The notes beneath the pieces were generated by a model. It ran no database searches. It was not told the origin of the DNA and saw only the letters and a program-made list of their open reading frames with translations. A DNA stretch of 32,727 bases from Microcoleus sp. MP8IB2.171. GTDB lineage: Bacteria; Cyanobacteriota; Cyanobacteriia; Cyanobacteriales; Microcoleaceae. Below, in pieces: positions 5,473-27,736 of the stretch (position 1 is its first letter; every line of letters starts with the position of its first letter). The stretch spans positions 1 through 32,727 of the forward strand of contig JARCMA010000261.1 of assembly GCA_030248405.1 (NCBI GenBank), read 5' to 3'. Position numbers and translations under genes: made by a program.

Positions 5473-6933
5473 ATGCTCCTTTCACCCTCTGGCGCCAGCA
5501 AACTCAAAGAATCTTTAAAAGAAAAAGTATTCTTCGGGAATGAGCCAACCCCCGAACTCATAGCCATCTTACTGATTTACTTCGTCCAAGGCATTCTTGG
5601 ACTAGCCCGCTTAGCTGTCAGCTTCTTTCTCAAAGACGAACTCGGCATGAGTCCGGCAGAAGTCTCGGCAATGCTGGGCGTCGTAGCCCTGCCTTGGATT
5701 ATCAAACCCGTGTTCGGCTTCATGTCGGACGGCTTGCCGATATTCGGCTACCGCAGACGCCCTTACATCGTCCTCTCCGGGCTGCTGGGAACGTCAGCAT
5801 GGGTGGGGCTCGCAACAATTGTACACACGCCGTTAGCCGCTACAGGGGCGATCGCCCTGAGTTCCCTCTCCCTCGCCGTCAGCGACGTAATCGCCGACTC
5901 CCTGGTAGTCGAAAGAGCCAGAAAAGAATCCGTTACCGACGCCGGTTCCCTGCAATCCTTGTCTTGGGGCGCTGCAGCCCTCGGCGGACTAATTACCGCC
6001 TACCTCAGCGGTTCCCTGCTGCAACACTTCAGCACCCACACAATATTTTTAATCACCGCATCTTTCCCGCTAATTGTATCAGCAACAGCTTGGTTAATTG
6101 CCGAAGAAAAAACCAACAAAAGAACAGACTTTGAAACAGTCAAAGACCAACTAAAAAAACTACGGCAAGCTGTTACCCAAAAAACAATTTGGCTGCCCAC
6201 CGCCTTTCTCTTCCTCTGGCAAGCCACCCCAAGCTCAGACTCCGCCTTCTTCTTTTTCACCACCAACGAATTAGGCTTTCAACCAGAATTTCTCGGTCGA
6301 GTGCGCCTCGTTACCAGCATTGCCGCCCTCGCCGGCATCTGGCTGTTTCAGCGCTTCCTCAAAACAGTTCCATTTCGAGTAATTTTTGGCTGGTCAACAG
6401 TCATTGCGACTGCTTTGGGCATGACTACTTTATTATTAGTAACTCATGCCAACCGAGCTTTAGGAATTGACGATCAATGGTTCAGCATCGGAGACAGCCT
6501 GATCCTGACAGTAATCGGACAAATTGCTTATATGCCGGTGCTCGTACTCTCCGCCAGATTGTGTCCCCCAGGCGTCGAAGCAACTTTATTTGCCGTGTTG
6601 ATGTCAGTCACCAACTTAGCAGGACTTATTTCCCACGAAGGCGGCGCACTTTTAACCCACTTGCTAGGAATTACCGATCGCAATTTCGATAACCTCTGGC
6701 TGCTAATTGTCATCACAAACCTCTCCACACTTCTGCCGCTACCGTTCTTAAATTGGCTGCCCGCCGACAGTACAGAAAGCGCCGATCCAAATTCTCAAAA
6801 GTCTCTTCCCGTATTAGAACCAGAAATGGGCAGTTCCAAACCAGGCGGACAGCATTTCATGCCCGAATACTTTCCCGACTTAGTACCGACAGTAAGGTCA
6901 CAAAGCCGCACCGCAGAAAACAAACTCAGCTAA
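5473..6933 (+). CDS. Folate-biopterin transporter family (BT1/FBT) membrane protein
   Basis: A 486-residue membrane protein with about 12 hydrophobic segments of major-facilitator type. Segments such as YFVQGILGLARLAVSFFLKD, KPVFGFMSDGLPIFGYRRRP (about 77-96) and AVSDVIADSLVVERAR (about 136-151) are hallmarks of the FBT family, whose cyanobacterial and plastid members transport folates or pterins. The C-terminal 50 residues are polar and not conserved in appearance. The ATG at 5473 follows an AT-rich leader; no strong Shine-Dalgarno sequence is seen. The carotenoid oxygenase gene follows after 66 bases on the same strand, so the two could be co-transcribed. The substrate is inferred from the family only. 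Confidence 0.85.
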   Translation: MLLSPSGASKLKESLKEKVFFGNEPTPELIAILLIYFVQGILGLARLAVSFFLKDELGMSPAEVSAMLGVVALPWIIKPVFGFMSDGLPIFGYRRRPYIVLSGLLGTSAWVGLATIVHTPLAATGAIALSSLSLAVSDVIADSLVVERARKESVTDAGSLQSLSWGAAALGGLITAYLSGSLLQHFSTHTIFLITASFPLIVSATAWLIAEEKTNKRTDFETVKDQLKKLRQAVTQKTIWLPTAFLFLWQATPSSDSAFFFFTTNELGFQPEFLGRVRLVTSIAALAGIWLFQRFLKTVPFRVIFGWSTVIATALGMTTLLLVTHANRALGIDDQWFSIGDSLILTVIGQIAYMPVLVLSARLCPPGVEATLFAVLMSVTNLAGLISHEGGALLTHLLGITDRNFDNLWLLIVITNLSTLLPLPFLNWLPADSTESADPNSQKSLPVLEPEMGSSKPGGQHFMPEYFPDLVPTVRSQSRTAENKLS

Positions 6934-6999
6934 TCCCAATTCATCTGCGTTTACCTGCGTTCATCAGCGGTTAAAAAATTCGCTCCCATACATTTACCA

Positions 7000-8496
7000 A
7001 TGCCAAACTTACAGCTTTCCAAACCTCAAACAGCCGCCCCAAACTCATCATACGATCGCACAGACTGGCAGCGCGGCTACGAATCCCAACCCAACGAATC
7101 CGACTACTGGATTGACGACATAGAAGGCGAAATCCCCGCCGACTTGCAAGGCACATTCTTTCGCAACGGGCCCGGATTATTGGATGTCAACGGCCAGCGC
7201 ATCCACCACCCCTTTGACGGCGATGGGATGGTTTGTGCGATCGCAATTTCTCAAGGCCGCGCCCATTTCCGCAACCGATTCGTGCACACAGAAGGCTATC
7301 TAGCCGAACAAAAATCCGGAAAAATCCTGCACCGAGGCGTTTTCGGCACACAGAAACCAGGGGGCTGGCTAGCCAACATCTTTGATGTCAAAATCAAAAA
7401 CATTGCCAACACCAACATCATTTATTGGGGCGACAAACTGCTAGCACTTTGGGAAGCGGCACAGCCCTACAGACTCGACCCCCGCACCCTAGAAACCCTC
7501 GGCTTAGACACCCTAGACGGCATCTTAGAACCCGGTGAAGCCTTCGCCGCCCACCCCAGAATAGAAAAAGGCAAAAATGGCAAAGGAGACAGATTAGTAA
7601 ACTTTTCTGTCAAGCCCGGTTTGTCGAGTACCATCACCATTTACGAACTCGATGCAAGCGGCAAATTATTGCAGAAACACGCCCATGCAATACCGGGTTT
7701 TGCCTTCCTGCACGACATGGTAATTACCCCGAATTACTGCATATTCTTCCAAAATCCCGTCAGCTTCAATCCGCTGCTTTTCTTGTTAGGATTTCGGAGT
7801 GCCTCCCAGTGCATTCAATTTTCGCCAAACAAGCCAACCCAAGCAATTTTAATTCCCCGCAACGGCACTGACGAGGTGAAGATATTAGAAACTGAACCTT
7901 GTTTTGTCTTCCACCACTGCAACGCATGGGAAGAAGGAGACGAAGTTTTTGTAGATTCAGTTTGTTACGAATCATTCCCAACGGTAGAGGCGGACGGCGA
8001 TTTTCGCGAGATTGATTTTGACAGCGTTCCAGCGGGCGAATTGTGGCGGTTTAAGTTAAATTTGCAAGACAAAACGGTGCAGCATCAAGTTGTTGAAACT
8101 AGGTGCTGCGAGTTTCCGACTCTGCATCCCAATAATGTCGGACAACCTTACCGATATCTTTACATCGGTGCTGCGGATTCTCCCACTGGGAATGCTCCTT
8201 TGCAAGCTATCCTCAAAATGGATTTCGTGACTGGTGAAAGGCAAATTTGGAGTGCGGCACCGCGTGGTTTTGCGGGGGAACCGGTGTTTGTTACCCGTCC
8301 CGATGCTGTTGCTGAGGATGACGGCTGGCTGCTGGTTTTAATGTATGATGCAGCTAATCATCGATCGACCTTAGTGATTTTAGATGCTCGTGATATTACC
8401 AAAGGCCCTGTAGCGCGCTTGCATTTAAAACAGCACATTCCCTACGGTTTGCACGGCAGTTTCACAACAAATGTATTGCTTCCTATCGGTTCGTAG
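7000..8496 (+). CDS. Carotenoid/apocarotenoid cleavage oxygenase (RPE65/ACO family)
   Basis: A 498-residue soluble enzyme. The family's iron is held by four His residues; here they fall at H185 (FAAHPRIE), H238 (FLHDMVIT), H305 (FVFHHCNAW) and H485 (YGLHGSF), almost the same positions as in the Synechocystis apocarotenoid 15,15'-oxygenase. Early motifs GTFFRNGPGLLDV and HPFDGDGMV are also family signatures. The known reaction is oxidative cleavage of a double bond in (apo)carotenoids with O2 to give retinal-type aldehydes. The cleavage site and substrate of this member cannot be fixed from sequence. It lies 66 bases behind the FBT transporter; no functional link between them is known to me. 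A repeat-rich spacer follows. Confidence 0.9.
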   Translation: MPNLQLSKPQTAAPNSSYDRTDWQRGYESQPNESDYWIDDIEGEIPADLQGTFFRNGPGLLDVNGQRIHHPFDGDGMVCAIAISQGRAHFRNRFVHTEGYLAEQKSGKILHRGVFGTQKPGGWLANIFDVKIKNIANTNIIYWGDKLLALWEAAQPYRLDPRTLETLGLDTLDGILEPGEAFAAHPRIEKGKNGKGDRLVNFSVKPGLSSTITIYELDASGKLLQKHAHAIPGFAFLHDMVITPNYCIFFQNPVSFNPLLFLLGFRSASQCIQFSPNKPTQAILIPRNGTDEVKILETEPCFVFHHCNAWEEGDEVFVDSVCYESFPTVEADGDFREIDFDSVPAGELWRFKLNLQDKTVQHQVVETRCCEFPTLHPNNVGQPYRYLYIGAADSPTGNAPLQAILKMDFVTGERQIWSAAPRGFAGEPVFVTRPDAVAEDDGWLLVLMYDAANHRSTLVILDARDITKGPVARLHLKQHIPYGLHGSFTTNVLLPIGS

Positions 8497-19178: not shown

Positions 19179-19225
19179 GCGAAGGAATAAGGAATAAGGA
19201 AGAGGGCTAGAGGGGGATAATTGCC

Positions 19226-19290
19226 CGATTACCTATTACCAATTACCGATTACCGATTACCGATTACCAATTACCAATGCCCGATTACTA
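19226..19290. repeat. Heptamer tandem array (ATTACCG)n in front of ictB
   Basis: Unit ATTACC plus one variable base (T, A or G), about seven copies, then a degenerate tail. The array is in the ictB frame and would add ITDYRLPITNY-like residues if an upstream ATG were used; the ATG at 19311 avoids it. Confidence 0.85.
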
Positions 19291-19310
19291 AGTACAAATC
19301 TAAAATAGCA

Positions 19311-20774
19311 ATGAATTCAGTTTGGCAACAGTTAACTCTGGCAAATTTGCCGCTCTCTCAGTGGCAAAGTAGAAGTTATTTATTCAATTTGGCGATCGGC
19401 TCTTTACGCAGTTGGCGACAAAGTAGCTGGCTGATGCAGTGGGCAGAACCCTTGGGTTTTGTTTTGCTGGCCTTGACTTTCGGTTTTGCGCCGTTTGTAA
19501 GCAATGCCTTGGTGGGGGTGTTGATGGCGGCTAGCGCTGCATTTTGGGTGCTGCTGACTGTTTCGGACGATCGCGCGATCGCCTTGAGCCCGATTCACTT
19601 GCTGGTACTGCTGTACTGGGGCATTGCCACCGTCGCAACGGCGATGTCGCCGGTGAAAGTCGCCGCTGCTACTGGTTGGAGCAAGCTAACGCTGTATTTG
19701 CTGTTTTTTGCGCTGATGGCTCGGATATTGCGATCGCCCCGTTGGCGATCGTGGTTAATTGCCGTATTTTTGAACGTCGCTCTAGTTGTCAGTTTCTACG
19801 GCGTGCGACAGTGGATTGACAAAGTGCCACCATTAGCTACTTGGAACGATCCGACTTCTACTCAAGCCAATGTCACGCGAGTTTACAGTTTTCTGGGAAA
19901 TCCTAACTTGCTTGGTTCCTATTTACTGCCAGCCATTGCATTGAGCGCCGCCGCACTTTTTGTGTGGAAAGGATGGGGAACAAAAATTTTAGCGCTGACG
20001 ATGCTGGTGGTGAATTGCGCGTGTTTGCGCTACACGGACAGCCGGGGTGCTTGGATCGGTTTTGTGGCTCTACTGGTGGTATTTTTAGTGCTGCTGTGGT
20101 ACTGGTACAGCCCTTTGATGCCTCGGTTCTGGCGAACTTGGGCGCTGCCGTTAGGGTTAGGAGGTTTGGCTGGGGCCTTAATTTTGGGAGTGGCTTTAGT
20201 GGAACCCCTGCGCGATCGAGTTTCGAGTATGTTTATCGGCCGAGGTGACAGCAGCAACAATTTTCGGATTAATGTTTGGACGGCGGTGGTTGACATGATT
20301 CGCGATCGACCAATTCTCGGAATTGGCCCGGGAAACACTGCTTTTAATAAAGTTTATCCGCTTTATATGAAGCCGAAATTCACTGCTTTGAGCGCTTATT
20401 CCGTGCTGTTGGAAATTGCGGTGGAAACCGGTTTTATCGGTTTAATGTGTTTCCTGTGGCTGATGACTGTCACCATCAATCAAGGTTTGTTGCAGATCAA
20501 ACATCTGCGGGATTCACAATTTAACATCTCTAGTTTAGAGTCGGAATCGCAAAATCCCAAATCTAAAATCCCAAATCTAAAATCGAATCAGGGGTTTTGG
20601 TTGATTGGGGCGATCGCAACTTTAGCCGGCATGATGGCCCACGGTTTTGTCGATACAGTTTGGTACCGGCCGGAAGTTAATATGCTTTGGTGGTTGATGG
20701 TGGCGATTATTGCTAGTTTTTACAGCAACTCGCATCAGCAGCAGCAAGATTCAGCTTTGACGGAGGGCGAGTAG
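19311..20774 (+). CDS. ictB: IctB family protein (putative bicarbonate transport / O-antigen ligase-like)
   Basis: A 487-residue membrane protein with about ten hydrophobic segments. The start MNSVWQQLTLANLPLSQW, the loop SFLGNPNLLGSYLLPA, the stretch CLRYTDSRGAWIGF and GIGPGNTAFNKVYPLYM are marks of the cyanobacterial IctB family, which belongs to the Wzy_C/O-antigen ligase superfamily. IctB was first linked to inorganic carbon accumulation in Synechococcus; its exact activity is disputed. The frame is open from 19221, but those codons are a heptamer array, so I start at 19311. Residues about 405-427 (SQNPKSKIPNLKSNQ region) are coded by AAATCTAAAATCCC-type DNA, the same unit as in nearby spacers, and look like an insertion in a loop between two membrane segments. 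Confidence 0.82.
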   Translation: MNSVWQQLTLANLPLSQWQSRSYLFNLAIGSLRSWRQSSWLMQWAEPLGFVLLALTFGFAPFVSNALVGVLMAASAAFWVLLTVSDDRAIALSPIHLLVLLYWGIATVATAMSPVKVAAATGWSKLTLYLLFFALMARILRSPRWRSWLIAVFLNVALVVSFYGVRQWIDKVPPLATWNDPTSTQANVTRVYSFLGNPNLLGSYLLPAIALSAAALFVWKGWGTKILALTMLVVNCACLRYTDSRGAWIGFVALLVVFLVLLWYWYSPLMPRFWRTWALPLGLGGLAGALILGVALVEPLRDRVSSMFIGRGDSSNNFRINVWTAVVDMIRDRPILGIGPGNTAFNKVYPLYMKPKFTALSAYSVLLEIAVETGFIGLMCFLWLMTVTINQGLLQIKHLRDSQFNISSLESESQNPKSKIPNLKSNQGFWLIGAIATLAGMMAHGFVDTVWYRPEVNMLWWLMVAIIASFYSNSHQQQQDSALTEGE

Positions 20775-23292: not shown

Positions 23293-24846
23293 ATGTCAAG
23301 CGGTATCATGCAGCGCACAAATATTCCCAATTCTGACCTTCCAGATGCTGTCAGTCCCAATTCGGCGGTTAATTTGGTTTGGCTGGCTCCTTTTTTGCTG
23401 GCGCTTGCTTGGTTTTGGGCCAATATCTCGGCAGTTAAGTGGCTGTTATCCTCGTTTGTTGAGATACCCACACTATACAAGATAGTAATTGGCTTTCTGA
23501 TTGTAGCATTAGTAGTGCGATCGACTGGGAAGTGCGATCGCCCGCCCGGATTTTCGCCAAATTTCGTTTTGAGGCGATATCCGCTGCTGTTGATGTTGGG
23601 TGCGGGTATTTGCTCGATCGCCCTTCAGTGCATAATTGATATCAAACAAATTACTGTCCTACTGTTTATCCTCGGAACTTACGGGCTGTGCGGCTTAATG
23701 GTGGAGCCGAACTTTTGGCGAAAAAACTTACCAGTTGCGGGCTTGCTGGCTTGTATTTTACCATTCAATAGTCAGTTTAATAGCGGCTTAGGTTTGCCGG
23801 CGCGAGTGCTCACTGCTCAGATAGTAGAACAGTTGCTCTCTCTGCTGCACATTGGGGCTATTTCTTCTTACGATATTATCGTTTTGGAAAACGGCATCGC
23901 TCACGTTGACGTGCCTTGTAGCGGCATTAAAACCCTCTTAGTCGGAACGCTATTTTTGCTTGCCGCTACCTGGCTAGAATGCCGCAAATTGAGTTTAAAA
24001 TGGCTGGCAGTGTGCGCTGCTAACTTCTTAATGTTAGTGTCTGCTAACGCTTTGCGAGTTGCCGTGCTAGTGCTGGTTGCCCAAGTTTTTCAACAGCCAA
24101 CTTATGCAGCAATGCTGCACGTACCCCTAGGAATTGTGGGTTTAATCGGCGCTTGCTTTTTAAGTTGGTTAATGCTGCAAAAAGTTCCGAAATTTCAAGA
24201 AACAAAACAAATTGATTTTAACTCGCAACGGGATTTAGAAATACTCAAAAATCAGCCTTTTGCCAAACCGGGACTAATTGTGGCGGTGGCTGTTTTGGCC
24301 GTAATTTCTCAATTGTATCATGTAGAAAGTGAAAAATTAGCGATCGCCCCCCTGAAATTTCCCGAACCGATTGTGTCCGAATCAATCCCGCTGAATCCCA
24401 GCGAACAAAAATTCTTTGGCAATTACCCCGGCACCCAAACAGAGAAAAAGAGATTTGTGTCAGGCAACTTGCGCGGTTCCATGCTCACAGTAGCCAGCAC
24501 ATCTTGGCAGACTTATCACGCACCGGAGCTGTGTTTTGTAGCCAGCGGCATTCCAGTCAATCGCATAGAAAAAAAACAACTAACTCCTGAAATAACAGCG
24601 CGCTGGCTGTCTCTCAAAGACAACCAATTATCAGCAGTATACTGGCTGCAATCTGCACAGCTAACTACAGATAACTTCATGTCCCGTATCGGCAGCGACC
24701 TCACTAACAAAAACCATACTTGGGTGCTAGTTTCCATTTTATTTGACAGTTCGCTACAAGCCGAAAATCATGAAGTAAAAGAGTTTGCTAGTCATGTATA
24801 CGATACCGTCAAACAAAGCTTACAAGGACAAATGAATGAAAATTAA
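23293..24846 (+). CDS. Exosortase with C-terminal EpsI-like domain (XrtO-type)
   Basis: A 517-residue membrane protease/transpeptidase. The N-terminal 300 residues have about eight hydrophobic segments. The catalytic residues of exosortases are visible: C209 in DVPCSGIKTLLVGTLFL, R255 in NALRVAVLVL and H276 in MLHVPLGIVG. After a last membrane segment (about 333-345), residues about 350-517 form an EpsI-like domain (LRGSMLTVASTSWQTYHAPE, with a Cys in LCFVASG). Exosortases recognise C-terminal PEP-CTERM signals and cut or transfer the protein at the membrane. The next gene starts inside this one (11-base overlap) and ends with such a signal, so it is the likely substrate. To my knowledge cyanobacterial exosortase O pairs with this family; the exact subtype needs a model search. 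Confidence 0.88.
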   Translation: MSSGIMQRTNIPNSDLPDAVSPNSAVNLVWLAPFLLALAWFWANISAVKWLLSSFVEIPTLYKIVIGFLIVALVVRSTGKCDRPPGFSPNFVLRRYPLLLMLGAGICSIALQCIIDIKQITVLLFILGTYGLCGLMVEPNFWRKNLPVAGLLACILPFNSQFNSGLGLPARVLTAQIVEQLLSLLHIGAISSYDIIVLENGIAHVDVPCSGIKTLLVGTLFLLAATWLECRKLSLKWLAVCAANFLMLVSANALRVAVLVLVAQVFQQPTYAAMLHVPLGIVGLIGACFLSWLMLQKVPKFQETKQIDFNSQRDLEILKNQPFAKPGLIVAVAVLAVISQLYHVESEKLAIAPLKFPEPIVSESIPLNPSEQKFFGNYPGTQTEKKRFVSGNLRGSMLTVASTSWQTYHAPELCFVASGIPVNRIEKKQLTPEITARWLSLKDNQLSAVYWLQSAQLTTDNFMSRIGSDLTNKNHTWVLVSILFDSSLQAENHEVKEFASHVYDTVKQSLQGQMNEN

Positions 24847-27736
24847 ACAGGTATTTAATGGAGTTTTTCAAACAATTTTTTGGGTATGGAATTTGACTTT
24901 TTTATCGATTGTTTACTTGGGAATTTTGCCGATTATAGGAGTGCCATTAATTAGGGCGACAATCGATGGCATCATCCCGCTAGAGTTTTCTTTGACGATG
25001 GCAGCTACGATCGCAGTACCCACAGTATGTACAGTAATAGGAGCTAGGCGTTTTAGCAAGCAACCCCTACAGCTAATGCGTTGGTTTTACGGCGTAGAAG
25101 CACCGCTATTTTTGCTGTGTTTGCTCCGCTTGTTCCTGCTGCGAGAACTCACCCCAGCTAGTTATCAAATCATCGCTACTATTGCTTTGTGCATTGCAGC
25201 ATTTTTAGTGGAAATGCTGTACGGATATCTGGGTAAAAGAGAAAATGTTCAAAATATCTCAGATTCTCAAACTTCCCATAATAAACAGCCTCGTTTTTTA
25301 AGATTAATCGGAGAAAAGCGAAGTGCGTGGCTGCAATTAGGATGCCACAGTTTAATGCTAGTAGTGGGCATTTGGGCGGCAACATTGCTGATGTATTACG
25401 CTGTACCTGTGGCATTGTATACACTTTATGGATTCTTCACTGTAGTCATTGAATTTTTCAAGTTTACATGGGTATCAGCATTTTGGGATATCTTTAGATA
25501 CGGGGAGTGGATCTGGGGTTTAATTTGGGTACCGCTATCGTTTATATTGTTTGGTTTAACCTGTAGCTTGTTCGTTGTCATGCCTTCGCTGTATGGCTTT
25601 CTTAACATTCATTCCGGGCGGAAAATATGGCAGAGTTTTGCTGCACAATACGGGAAAAATAAAGCGATAATTGGAAGTTTGGGAGTCATAGCAGCTTGGC
25701 TGGCTATTTTCGTCGCTTTGCAGCAGCAGCCACAAGTTGCAGCACTGAAAATGCTGGCGACTCCCCCCGCAAATGACACGGTTCGCCAAACTTTATTAGC
25801 CAAGTCTGATATAATTCGGTCCGGCTTAGTTAACGCTTATTTGTCCCCTTACCGCTACCTCAGCACTGTGAGAGAAAACAACCACATTTATGAGATATAC
25901 AAAAACACTTTGAATTTACCTGACCAAGCGGCTCAAACGGTGCAGAATAGCTATAATTTTTTAATGTCGCCGTTTTTGTATCAAGGCTCTAGTGCTGATG
26001 CGGAAAAAGCCGAAAAACTCTACGGCGAATTCTTCGATACGGAACTGCAAAAAGGCGACACAGAAGCAGTAAAACACGCGGTACAGTCAACATCAAATCG
26101 GGAAGAAGCAAAAGCCGGTTTGCTGAATGTCAATCAAGAAAAAGTATGGTTGCAGTCGCAAGAAGTGACAGTCAAAGAAAACGGCGACTGGGCTGACGTT
26201 CAACTCTACGAAGTTTACAAAAATCAAACGCCCAACTTGCAAGAAGTATTTTACTACTTTTCCTTGCCGGAAAGCGCCGCAGTTACAGGAGTTTGGCTGG
26301 GCGATACTGGCGATTTGAAAAAGCGTTTTGCATTTACTGTATCGCCTCGCGGTGCGGCCCAGCAAGTCTACAACCAACAGGTAGTAGAAAGAGTCGATCC
26401 GGCTTTGCTAGAACAAATTGGTCCCAAACAATACCGTTTGCGGGCTTTTCCAATCCCGGCCAAACGAGAATTCACCCAAACTGATGGGCCAACGGAAATG
26501 CACCTGTGGCTTACTTACAAAGTCATGCGCCAGCCGCAGGGTTGGGTGATGCCTGTTTTGGCTGAGAAACGCAACATTTTTTGGAACCAAAATACTCGCC
26601 GCACGATCGCCGGAAAAGAGGTAAAATACAGCGGGAAAGAAGCAAGAGAAACTTGGCTGCCACCATTTTTGCCCGCAGTCGCACAGCAACCGCTAACAGC
26701 GCAGCAGGCGGTTCTACCGGGAGCAAATATTATTTCTGCTAAGCCGCTGGCTGATGCAAATTACTCGCTACCGCAAGGCAAAAAATTTGCAGTTATTCTC
26801 GATACTTCCCGCAGCATGGCGGCGGAAAAGAAGGAAGTAAAAGAGACTTTTGAATGGTTGAAAGCTAATGCAGCAGGCAAAAATGGTGTTGATTTGTATG
26901 TCGCTAGCGCTGCGGGAATGCCACCTAAGTTTGTGGAAGATGTACGCAATTTCGATGCGGCAAAGGTGACATTTTACGGTACGATTCAGCTCAAAGATAT
27001 GCTGCAACAGTTTGCACAGTTGCGGGGCGATAAAAGTTACGATACTGTATTTGTGGTGAGCGATCGCCACAGTTACGAATTATCGGACGATCGCAAACCT
27101 AAACTTTCCATCTCTGCACCCCTATGGACAGTGCATTTGGGTGCTTTGCCCCCCGGCTACGACGACGCAACTTTGAAGGTAATTCAAGATAGTGGCGGCG
27201 GAGTTGCTACGGATATGAAAGAGGCGATGCAGCGAGTGGCGACGACAGCAGCTTCGGGCAAATCTACAGTTAGCGTTGTTGACGGCTATGTTTGGAGTTA
27301 TGCCAAAACCCCGCCCTCGAAAAAAACCGCAAAATCGGCGGCAGTTGCAGAGTCAAAAAATGCCGGAAATGAAGGCTTTAAACCCATAGCTGCGCGGCAG
27401 TTGATAACGGCACTTAGCAAGCAGAAAAGTTCAAATCAATTGACGCAACTGGATGCAATGCACGCGGTGGCTAAAAATTTCAAAGTGGTGACTCCTTATT
27501 CTTCGATGATTGTGTTAGTTAATGACGCGCAAAGGGAGCAGCTAAAAGCAGCGGAAGCTAAGAATGATCGATTTGAACGCGAGGTAGAATCGGGTAAGGA
27601 GGAGTTAACTAAGCCGAATAATCCTCTGAATGTTTCGGGGGTTCCTGAACCGGAAGAATGGCTGCTTTTGGCGGTAGGTGCGATCGGGCTTTTGGTGATT
27701 TTTCTCCGTCAGCGGCGCGCGAAAATGGTAGGTTGA
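24836..27736 (+). CDS. PEP-CTERM family integral membrane protein with VIT and vWA domains
   Basis: A 966-residue protein. Order: six to eight hydrophobic segments (about 10-315), a helical linker, a VIT-like domain (about 420-570, LLNVNQEKVWLQSQEVTVKE to YRLRAFPIP), a vWA domain whose metal site is D656-T-S658-R-S660 (VILDTSRSM), a Lys/Ala-rich linker, and at the end the sorting signal VPEPEEW (936-942), a hydrophobic segment and the basic tail RQRRAK. The layout fits the PEP-CTERM integral membrane family (TIGR02921 type, from memory). Most PEP-CTERM proteins are exported and have no other membrane segments, so this one is unusual. It overlaps the exosortase gene by 11 bases and has CAAGGA before its ATG. 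The vWA and VIT parts suggest protein binding; function is unknown. Confidence 0.85.
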   Translation: MKIKQVFNGVFQTIFWVWNLTFLSIVYLGILPIIGVPLIRATIDGIIPLEFSLTMAATIAVPTVCTVIGARRFSKQPLQLMRWFYGVEAPLFLLCLLRLFLLRELTPASYQIIATIALCIAAFLVEMLYGYLGKRENVQNISDSQTSHNKQPRFLRLIGEKRSAWLQLGCHSLMLVVGIWAATLLMYYAVPVALYTLYGFFTVVIEFFKFTWVSAFWDIFRYGEWIWGLIWVPLSFILFGLTCSLFVVMPSLYGFLNIHSGRKIWQSFAAQYGKNKAIIGSLGVIAAWLAIFVALQQQPQVAALKMLATPPANDTVRQTLLAKSDIIRSGLVNAYLSPYRYLSTVRENNHIYEIYKNTLNLPDQAAQTVQNSYNFLMSPFLYQGSSADAEKAEKLYGEFFDTELQKGDTEAVKHAVQSTSNREEAKAGLLNVNQEKVWLQSQEVTVKENGDWADVQLYEVYKNQTPNLQEVFYYFSLPESAAVTGVWLGDTGDLKKRFAFTVSPRGAAQQVYNQQVVERVDPALLEQIGPKQYRLRAFPIPAKREFTQTDGPTEMHLWLTYKVMRQPQGWVMPVLAEKRNIFWNQNTRRTIAGKEVKYSGKEARETWLPPFLPAVAQQPLTAQQAVLPGANIISAKPLADANYSLPQGKKFAVILDTSRSMAAEKKEVKETFEWLKANAAGKNGVDLYVASAAGMPPKFVEDVRNFDAAKVTFYGTIQLKDMLQQFAQLRGDKSYDTVFVVSDRHSYELSDDRKPKLSISAPLWTVHLGALPPGYDDATLKVIQDSGGGVATDMKEAMQRVATTAASGKSTVSVVDGYVWSYAKTPPSKKTAKSAAVAESKNAGNEGFKPIAARQLITALSKQKSSNQLTQLDAMHAVAKNFKVVTPYSSMIVLVNDAQREQLKAAEAKNDRFEREVESGKEELTKPNNPLNVSGVPEPEEWLLLAVGAIGLLVIFLRQRRAKMVG

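Follow-up and report, generated by a model that had tools for sequence, protein, structure and literature searches.

The window analysed here is a stretch of 32,727 nucleotides from Microcoleus sp. MP8IB2.171 (contig JARCMA010000261.1). Two overlapping genes on its + strand form the subject of this work. The first ORF (517 aa) is exosortase O (XrtO), a member of the curated family TIGR04489. The second (966 aa), referred to below as the target, is a multi-pass PEP-CTERM protein of the family TIGR02921 with VIT and vWA domains. The ATG of the target lies 11 nt upstream of the end of the XrtO gene. This 11-nt overlap was read at the junction, and the second gene does start inside the exosortase gene, as a preliminary description of this DNA had stated. 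The features of the pair are as follows.

23293-24846 (+), exosortase O (XrtO), 517 aa; TIGR04489, 624.6 bits (cut-off 250), and PF09721, 75.1 bits (cut-off 25.7)
23404-24177 (+), exosortase membrane core of XrtO, residues ~38-295, with C209, R255 and H276; PF09721 match and invariant residues
24373-24828 (+), fused EpsI-like alpha/beta domain of XrtO, residues ~361-512, with HxPxxC; modelled domain, invariant residues and a weak EpsI match (E 0.05)
24836-27736 (+), multi-pass PEP-CTERM protein of the TIGR02921 family, 966 aa, starting inside the XrtO gene; TIGR02921, 1052.5 bits (cut-off 200)
24842-25720 (+), predicted N-terminal membrane region of seven helices, residues 3-295; structure model (mean pLDDT 80.0) and averaged hydropathy
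26150-26476 (+), VIT domain, residues 439-547; PF08487, E 9.8e-12
26783-27253 (+), predicted vWA domain, residues ~650-806, with D656, S658, S660 and D743; VIA-align Z 11-13 to solved vWA domains and invariant residues
27641-27733 (+), C-terminal sorting tail of VPEPEEW, hydrophobic helix and RQRRAK, residues 936-966; sequence

The closest targets in named records, among the best 80 of 228 relatives, belong to Microcoleus vaginatus and other Microcoleus, with 92-94% identity. Within the genus, XrtO scores above its cut-off in all 29 genomes searched. A scan for promoters and terminators gave nothing beyond the level of shuffled sequence. Elsewhere in the window (5473-8496, +), an RPE65-type carotenoid oxygenase (7000-8496) adjoins a BT1-family transporter (5473-6933).

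Exosortase O

The match of XrtO to TIGR04489 is full-length, spanning positions 1-450 of the 451 in the model. The preliminary description had proposed that the pair be assigned with exosortase subtype and TIGR02921-type models, and these place the enzyme in TIGR04489 and the target in TIGR02921 at the scores listed above. The catalytic set of C209, R255 and H276, which it had described as intact, is present in full and is invariant in 14/14 aligned XrtO-type proteins and in 21/21 of a second set.

The C-terminal part of XrtO contains an HxPxxC signature, which resembles the EpsI motif. Its residues H409, P411 and C414, together with G419, are invariant in both alignments. In the structure model (mean pLDDT 65.4) this part appears as an alpha/beta domain that follows an additional helix (324-341). 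The best score to a curated EpsI family is 12.9 bits against a cut-off of 228 (NF045608). The term “built-in EpsI-like domain” is thus apt as a description of the signature and the modelled fold, and does not extend to membership of the EpsI family. No claim on the fold of XrtO is made, since the model is weak and its matches in the PDB all fall below Z 8. A search of the PDB for sequence relatives at E <= 0.1 found none for the XrtO profile and none for the target profile.

The target protein

Read from the N-terminus, the structure model of the target shows seven helices, then a helical stretch, the VIT sandwich at 437-540, the vWA domain at 650-806 and, at the very end, a helix at 939-965. 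The several N-terminal membrane segments noted earlier correspond to seven helices predicted by both the model and hydropathy, which also agree on the C-terminal helix. The VIT domain was likewise recovered, by its match to PF08487.

No vWA model of Pfam matches the target at E <= 0.1, and the vWA domain proposed in the preliminary description is predicted from the structure model, through Foldseek and VIA-align. Residues ~647-806 align with solved vWA domains at Z 11-13, mostly with an rmsd of 3-4 over ~150 residues. The metal-site residues D656, S658 and S660, described earlier as intact, are invariant along with D743 in 19/19 and 37/37 targets. D743 is probably part of the vWA metal site (DxSxS, Thr, Asp), and T716, a position that varies across the alignment, would be its usual Thr. 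The best solved match of the target model in Foldseek is inter-alpha-inhibitor heavy chain 1 (PDB 6fpy, E 1.1e-13), and VIA-align gives Z 11.8 over 418 residues with an rmsd of 7.5.

The C-terminal tail has the make-up of a PEP-CTERM sorting signal, with a PEP motif, the helix 939-965 and a basic RQRRAK end. The VPEPEEW, hydrophobic segment and basic tail of the preliminary description can all be read in the sequence. Two residues of the PEP motif, P937 and E938, do not vary in either target alignment. The tail scores 13.7 bits to the general PEP-CTERM model TIGR02595, below its cut-off of 16 bits.

Distribution, gene order and co-inheritance

A set of 386 genomes of the phylum was searched with the TIGR04489 and TIGR02921 profiles, at cut-offs of 250 and 200 respectively. 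XrtO was found above cut-off in 13 of these genomes and the target in 26. The target adjoins XrtO in 13/13 of the former. In the genome G360 XrtO is divided between two contigs, and its second part adjoins the target. Three distant genomes of ~2 Mb (L110, L111 and L112) encode an XrtO relative that stays below cut-off at 140-150 bits and, next to it, a target that scores 263-294 bits; here the gene order is reversed with the adjacency kept, and with the longest frames the two genes overlap. An adjacent target thus accompanies XrtO or its distant relative in 16/16 genomes. The dependence is one-sided, as 10 of the 26 target genomes are without XrtO: in this set the enzyme was never found without the target, and the target does occur without the enzyme.

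These counts leave aside weaker matches. TIGR04489 at E <= 0.001 matched 21 genomes, five of which (G038, G231, G296, G314 and G370, at 17.8-30.6 bits) were set aside as other exosortases. TIGR02921 matched 32 genomes, and the six below cut-off were set aside, five of them being limited to the VIT region. The sixth, G320 (L108:6862-7038), has a short stretch similar to the C-terminal region of the target, lacking both the PEP motif and XrtO, which is probably a relic. Another genome, G229, encodes a second, longer TIGR02921 protein (L105:6640-9849, -) beside an ORF of ~1000 aa, and its tail reads PEPGLIIGL. In a metagenome-assembled genome (L142:4420-6020) the XrtO matches lie over two overlapping frames, through a frameshift or an assembly error.

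The junction between the two genes was measured at 42 loci with start codons guessed by script, 12 others being unmeasurable. The genes overlap at 25 loci and are separated by 0-50 bp at 11, by 51-200 bp at five and by 1.3 kb at one (L165), the widest gap measured. Neighbourhoods were compared at 20 XrtO-bearing and 15 XrtO-less loci, chosen for diversity and some ending at contig ends. Only the target (35/35) and XrtO (20/20 and 0/15) recur widely in them. A third conserved gene was sought in these 35 neighbourhoods, and the next ORF family occurs in just seven loci.

Polysaccharide genes are not a conserved part of the locus in the same 35 neighbourhoods. The statement that there are no polysaccharide genes nearby stands in this sense for the locus type. 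It is inaccurate for the window itself, because an O-antigen-ligase-like Wzy_C ORF (19221-20774, +) ends 2.5 kb upstream of XrtO.

Pairwise distances of XrtO and target, compared over 26 pairs, correlate at 0.98, and at 0.94 when the distant pair and the extra Microcoleus are removed. The two trees share 13 of 23 splits; the other 10 differ, several with support of at least 94. Joint inheritance of XrtO and target therefore appears to be the main pattern, and is not proven throughout.

Other exosortases and the dedication of the pair

The genome of the window encodes two exosortases besides XrtO, namely cyanoexosortase B (CrtB, 439.8 bits) and cyanoexosortase A (CrtA, 296.2 bits). Apart from the target, PF07589 has six matches at E <= 1, three of them above cut-off; at the same threshold it also matches in 6/14 control genomes, never above cut-off. 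TIGR02595 gives seven matches at E <= 0.1. The six other tails read PEPSTWFG, PEPTTIAG, PEPMTMTG, PEPMTAMG, PEPMTVGG and PEPGTAIA, whereas that of the target reads PEPEEWLLLA. The preliminary description had asked for such a genome scan, and had named many other PEP-CTERM proteins with no further exosortase gene as a finding that would speak against dedication. This situation does not apply, with six matches of another tail type and both CrtA and CrtB present.

XrtO or an XrtO relative is the sole exosortase in four genomes (G280, G086, G188 and G359). These were scanned with TIGR02595 at E <= 10, a threshold at which 12 of 14 control genomes also match, two of them above cut-off. The target is the best match in G280 (17.8 bits, above cut-off), in G086 (14.3 bits, below cut-off) and, among intact frames, in G188 (14.3 bits, below cut-off); in G359 the scan misses it. 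No match other than the target exceeds the cut-off in any of the four at this threshold, and two weak ones lie in long frames of G280.

A different reading is that the pair is not exclusive. CrtA or CrtB may also process the target, or XrtO may also process general PEP-CTERM proteins, and adjacency would reflect co-expression only. It is consistent with the 10 of 26 target genomes that are without XrtO. In six of these an exosortase could be typed, each time as CrtB (in five as the sole exosortase), and the other four also have exosortases, of unassigned type. The general PEP-CTERM model points the same way, matching 8 of 10 tails from other XrtO loci, six of them above cut-off. Of 10 tails from XrtO-less loci, nine score above cut-off. 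Scores of the two groups overlap, the XrtO maximum of 20.9 bits being exceeded by five of the ten XrtO-less tails. Against this reading stand the genomes that have no exosortase besides XrtO or its relative, as they hold no second PEP-CTERM match above cut-off, and the tail of the target, which is consistently different where XrtO is adjacent. A non-exclusive pair is considered unlikely.

The interpretation as a dedicated enzyme-substrate pair appears largely supported by these comparisons. In terms of the definition of single-target systems (PMC3237569), the single-exosortase genomes and the tail type in the window genome give support to a single target, for which XrtO would be specific. The notion of “one enzyme and one substrate” is supported in so far as the other PEP-CTERM tails are of a different type and single-exosortase genomes show no further match above cut-off, and it does not hold as a mutual dependence, with the target occurring on its own in part of the genomes.

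Association of the sorting tail with XrtO

The tails were surveyed in the best 80 of 228 relatives in named genomes, of which 75 were usable. The absence of XrtO was judged from the flanks at 36 loci, and from a whole-genome search in the 10 XrtO-less genomes. Among the 75 usable loci, the pattern PEPxxW[LMIV]L occurs in 39/39 with an adjacent XrtO, against 0/36 without; 24 of the 39 XrtO loci are a close Microcoleus group and many loci are closely related. PEPxxW without the hydrophobic pair is found in 7/36 of the XrtO-less tails in this sample. The XrtO-less tails among these best relatives include PEPSGGW, PEPSSGAAL, PEPGMxxGL, PESSNG, PEASGGW and PEPHQWVGM. The three distant genomes with an XrtO relative have the tails PEPEQWAMI or PEPEDWIYI. 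One exception was seen in the whole genomes, as G280 has XrtO and a tail reading PEPPLVILVG.

PEPxxW alone was also considered as the mark of an XrtO substrate and was rejected, as it is found in the 7/36 XrtO-less tails and in the general tail PEPSTWFG. Since a W after PEPxx is thus shared with XrtO-less and general tails, the XrtO pattern needs the hydrophobic residues that follow. The XrtO-less loci L167, L168, L171, L172, L176, L179 and L186 keep the W after PEPxx, but G or S occupies at least one of the two positions that follow it; these are possibly in-between tails.

A search at the DNA level for PEPxxW followed by two hydrophobic residues gave 42 places in 29 genomes, compared with 21 for the reversed control pattern. 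Among the 31 places that were read, the only ones close to the end of a frame of at least 100 aa are eight targets. Of the 11 other places, four are targets by position.

A tree of 70 targets was built with the tail left out, by a quick method and with long-branch warnings from the program. On this tree, PEPxxW with two hydrophobic residues is present in 26/27 rows with XrtO and in 0/43 without. The comparison across cyanobacteria suggests that the tail of the target is matched to XrtO. This tail-enzyme association is apparently unreported, and its independent support is limited.

The association could alternatively stem from shared ancestry, the tail having drifted in a small number of target clades that the presence of XrtO happens to track. 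The tree allows for this, as it contains at least five changes in XrtO presence, of which well-supported (starred) branches force one. There are at most five independent pairs, one of them on starred branches. Because of this number the association cannot reach significance, and shared ancestry alone is not rejected statistically as its cause. The spread of the pattern argues in the other direction, since its 26 rows extend to distant targets whose overall identity is 24-27% and whose gene order is reversed, and none of the 43 XrtO-less rows has it. Ancestry alone is accordingly regarded as a rather improbable explanation.

Proposed mechanism

XrtO is likely to be dedicated to the processing of a single membrane protein, the one whose gene overlaps its own. 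The basis of this model, consisting of families, residues, fold, pairing and the tail-enzyme association, was computed. The topology of the arm, cleavage and the point at which it occurs, the acceptor, the way in which work is shared with CrtA and CrtB, and the hand-over to CrtB are what we infer.

The seven N-terminal helices would hold the target in the inner membrane, with the VIT-vWA part in the periplasm. According to the general model for PEP-CTERM proteins, the PEP motif is located where the membrane meets the periplasm, and the basic tail lies on the inner side (PMC1569441). The last helix of the target may similarly set VPEPEEW at the periplasmic face. Cys209 of XrtO, together with Arg255 and His276, would attack the chain at the PEP motif or just beside it, which would cut off the basic tail along with the last helix. 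The new C-terminus would then be freed or handed to an acceptor, which may be a lipid, a glycan or water. The outcome would be either a free periplasmic VIT-vWA arm or an arm tied to a new partner. The target would keep its seven N-terminal helices; cutting therefore could not release it from the membrane, and only the hold on its C-terminus would change. The freeing or anchoring of this C-terminus, as put forward in the preliminary description, seems a reasonable reading.

XrtO may pick the target from the other PEP-CTERM proteins by PEPxxW with hydrophobic residues directly after it. The other PEP-CTERM proteins of the window genome are presumably served by CrtA and CrtB. Where XrtO is absent, processing of the target may pass to cyanoexosortase B, a suggestion drawn from the XrtO-less targets, whose tails still contain PE and are of a more general type. 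As P and E are kept in these targets and CrtB is present in six of the ten genomes, processing seems worth keeping and CrtB could carry it out.

A further alternative is that no cleavage takes place, in which case the last helix would anchor the target permanently and XrtO would help to insert or assemble it. This is highly improbable given the invariance of C209, R255 and H276 in both XrtO alignments and of P937 and E938 in both target alignments, even if the CrtB study also did not directly observe the removal of a PEP-CTERM tail, neither of its strains having yielded any tail peptides (PMC12188702).

A more specific version of the model of dedicated processing is that XrtO joins the new C-terminus of the VIT-vWA part to an envelope glycan or lipid. 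The target would then be held at both ends, as a counterpart of the inter-alpha-inhibitor heavy chains, and where XrtO is missing the tail would have been rewritten so that CrtB does the same coupling. This version is speculative and thought very doubtful. If true, the coupling of the target to a glycan or lipid by XrtO would be a bacterial counterpart of the attachment of heavy chains to hyaluronan.

Comparison with known systems

The XrtO-target pair is already known and is not new here, as both of its members are in curated families (TIGR04489 and TIGR02921). Searches of the open-licence literature turned up neither a study of XrtO nor a report of the tail association, nor any functional data, and nothing was found tying the inter-alpha-trypsin inhibitor heavy chain to a bacterial sortase.

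An exosortase with dozens of substrates is hard to dissect. A 2025 study of CrtB in Nostoc punctiforme describes one exosortase for 35 putative PEP-CTERM proteins at a polysaccharide-associated locus (PMC12188702). CrtB belongs to the same superfamily as XrtO and also has PEP-CTERM substrates, but differs in its many substrates and in the polysaccharide association of its locus. The present pair brings together a single enzyme, one likely substrate and a difference between tails that the exchange of some few residues could probe, and among natural genomes some have XrtO and others lack it. With a tail apparently matched to XrtO, the pair is suited to the testing of exosortase recognition.

The closest solved relative of the VIT-vWA fold of the target is inter-alpha-inhibitor heavy chain 1 (PDB 6fpy). 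It differs from the target in being a secreted animal protein, with 11-12% identity, and in being put on hyaluronan by another enzyme; the heavy chains are covalently bound to hyaluronan (PMC7170535).

The exosortase N systems, MSEP-CTERM and exosortase T systems are single-target systems. Exosortase N with its VIT-domain target (TIGR04476 and TIGR04477), MSEP-CTERM (TIGR04286) and exosortase T (NF033770) show weak sequence similarity to this enzyme and target (E 1e-18 to 4e-5), and the pair lies far below the cut-offs of those families. A target that has a VIT domain and ends in a C-terminal sorting tail is a further feature in common.

Haft and Varghese described in 2011 both pairs of a dedicated enzyme and its target and VIT/vWA homologues that end in LPXTG, GlyGly-CTERM or PEP-CTERM tails (PMC3237569). 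The VIT/vWA proteins in that paper are of the same domain type as the target, some are single targets of an adjacent dedicated enzyme, and tails are swapped between homologues. Those tails belong to unrelated enzyme classes, whereas the tail types of the present case lie within the exosortases. The XrtO pair would be an added case of VIT-vWA proteins as single targets of C-terminal sorting enzymes.
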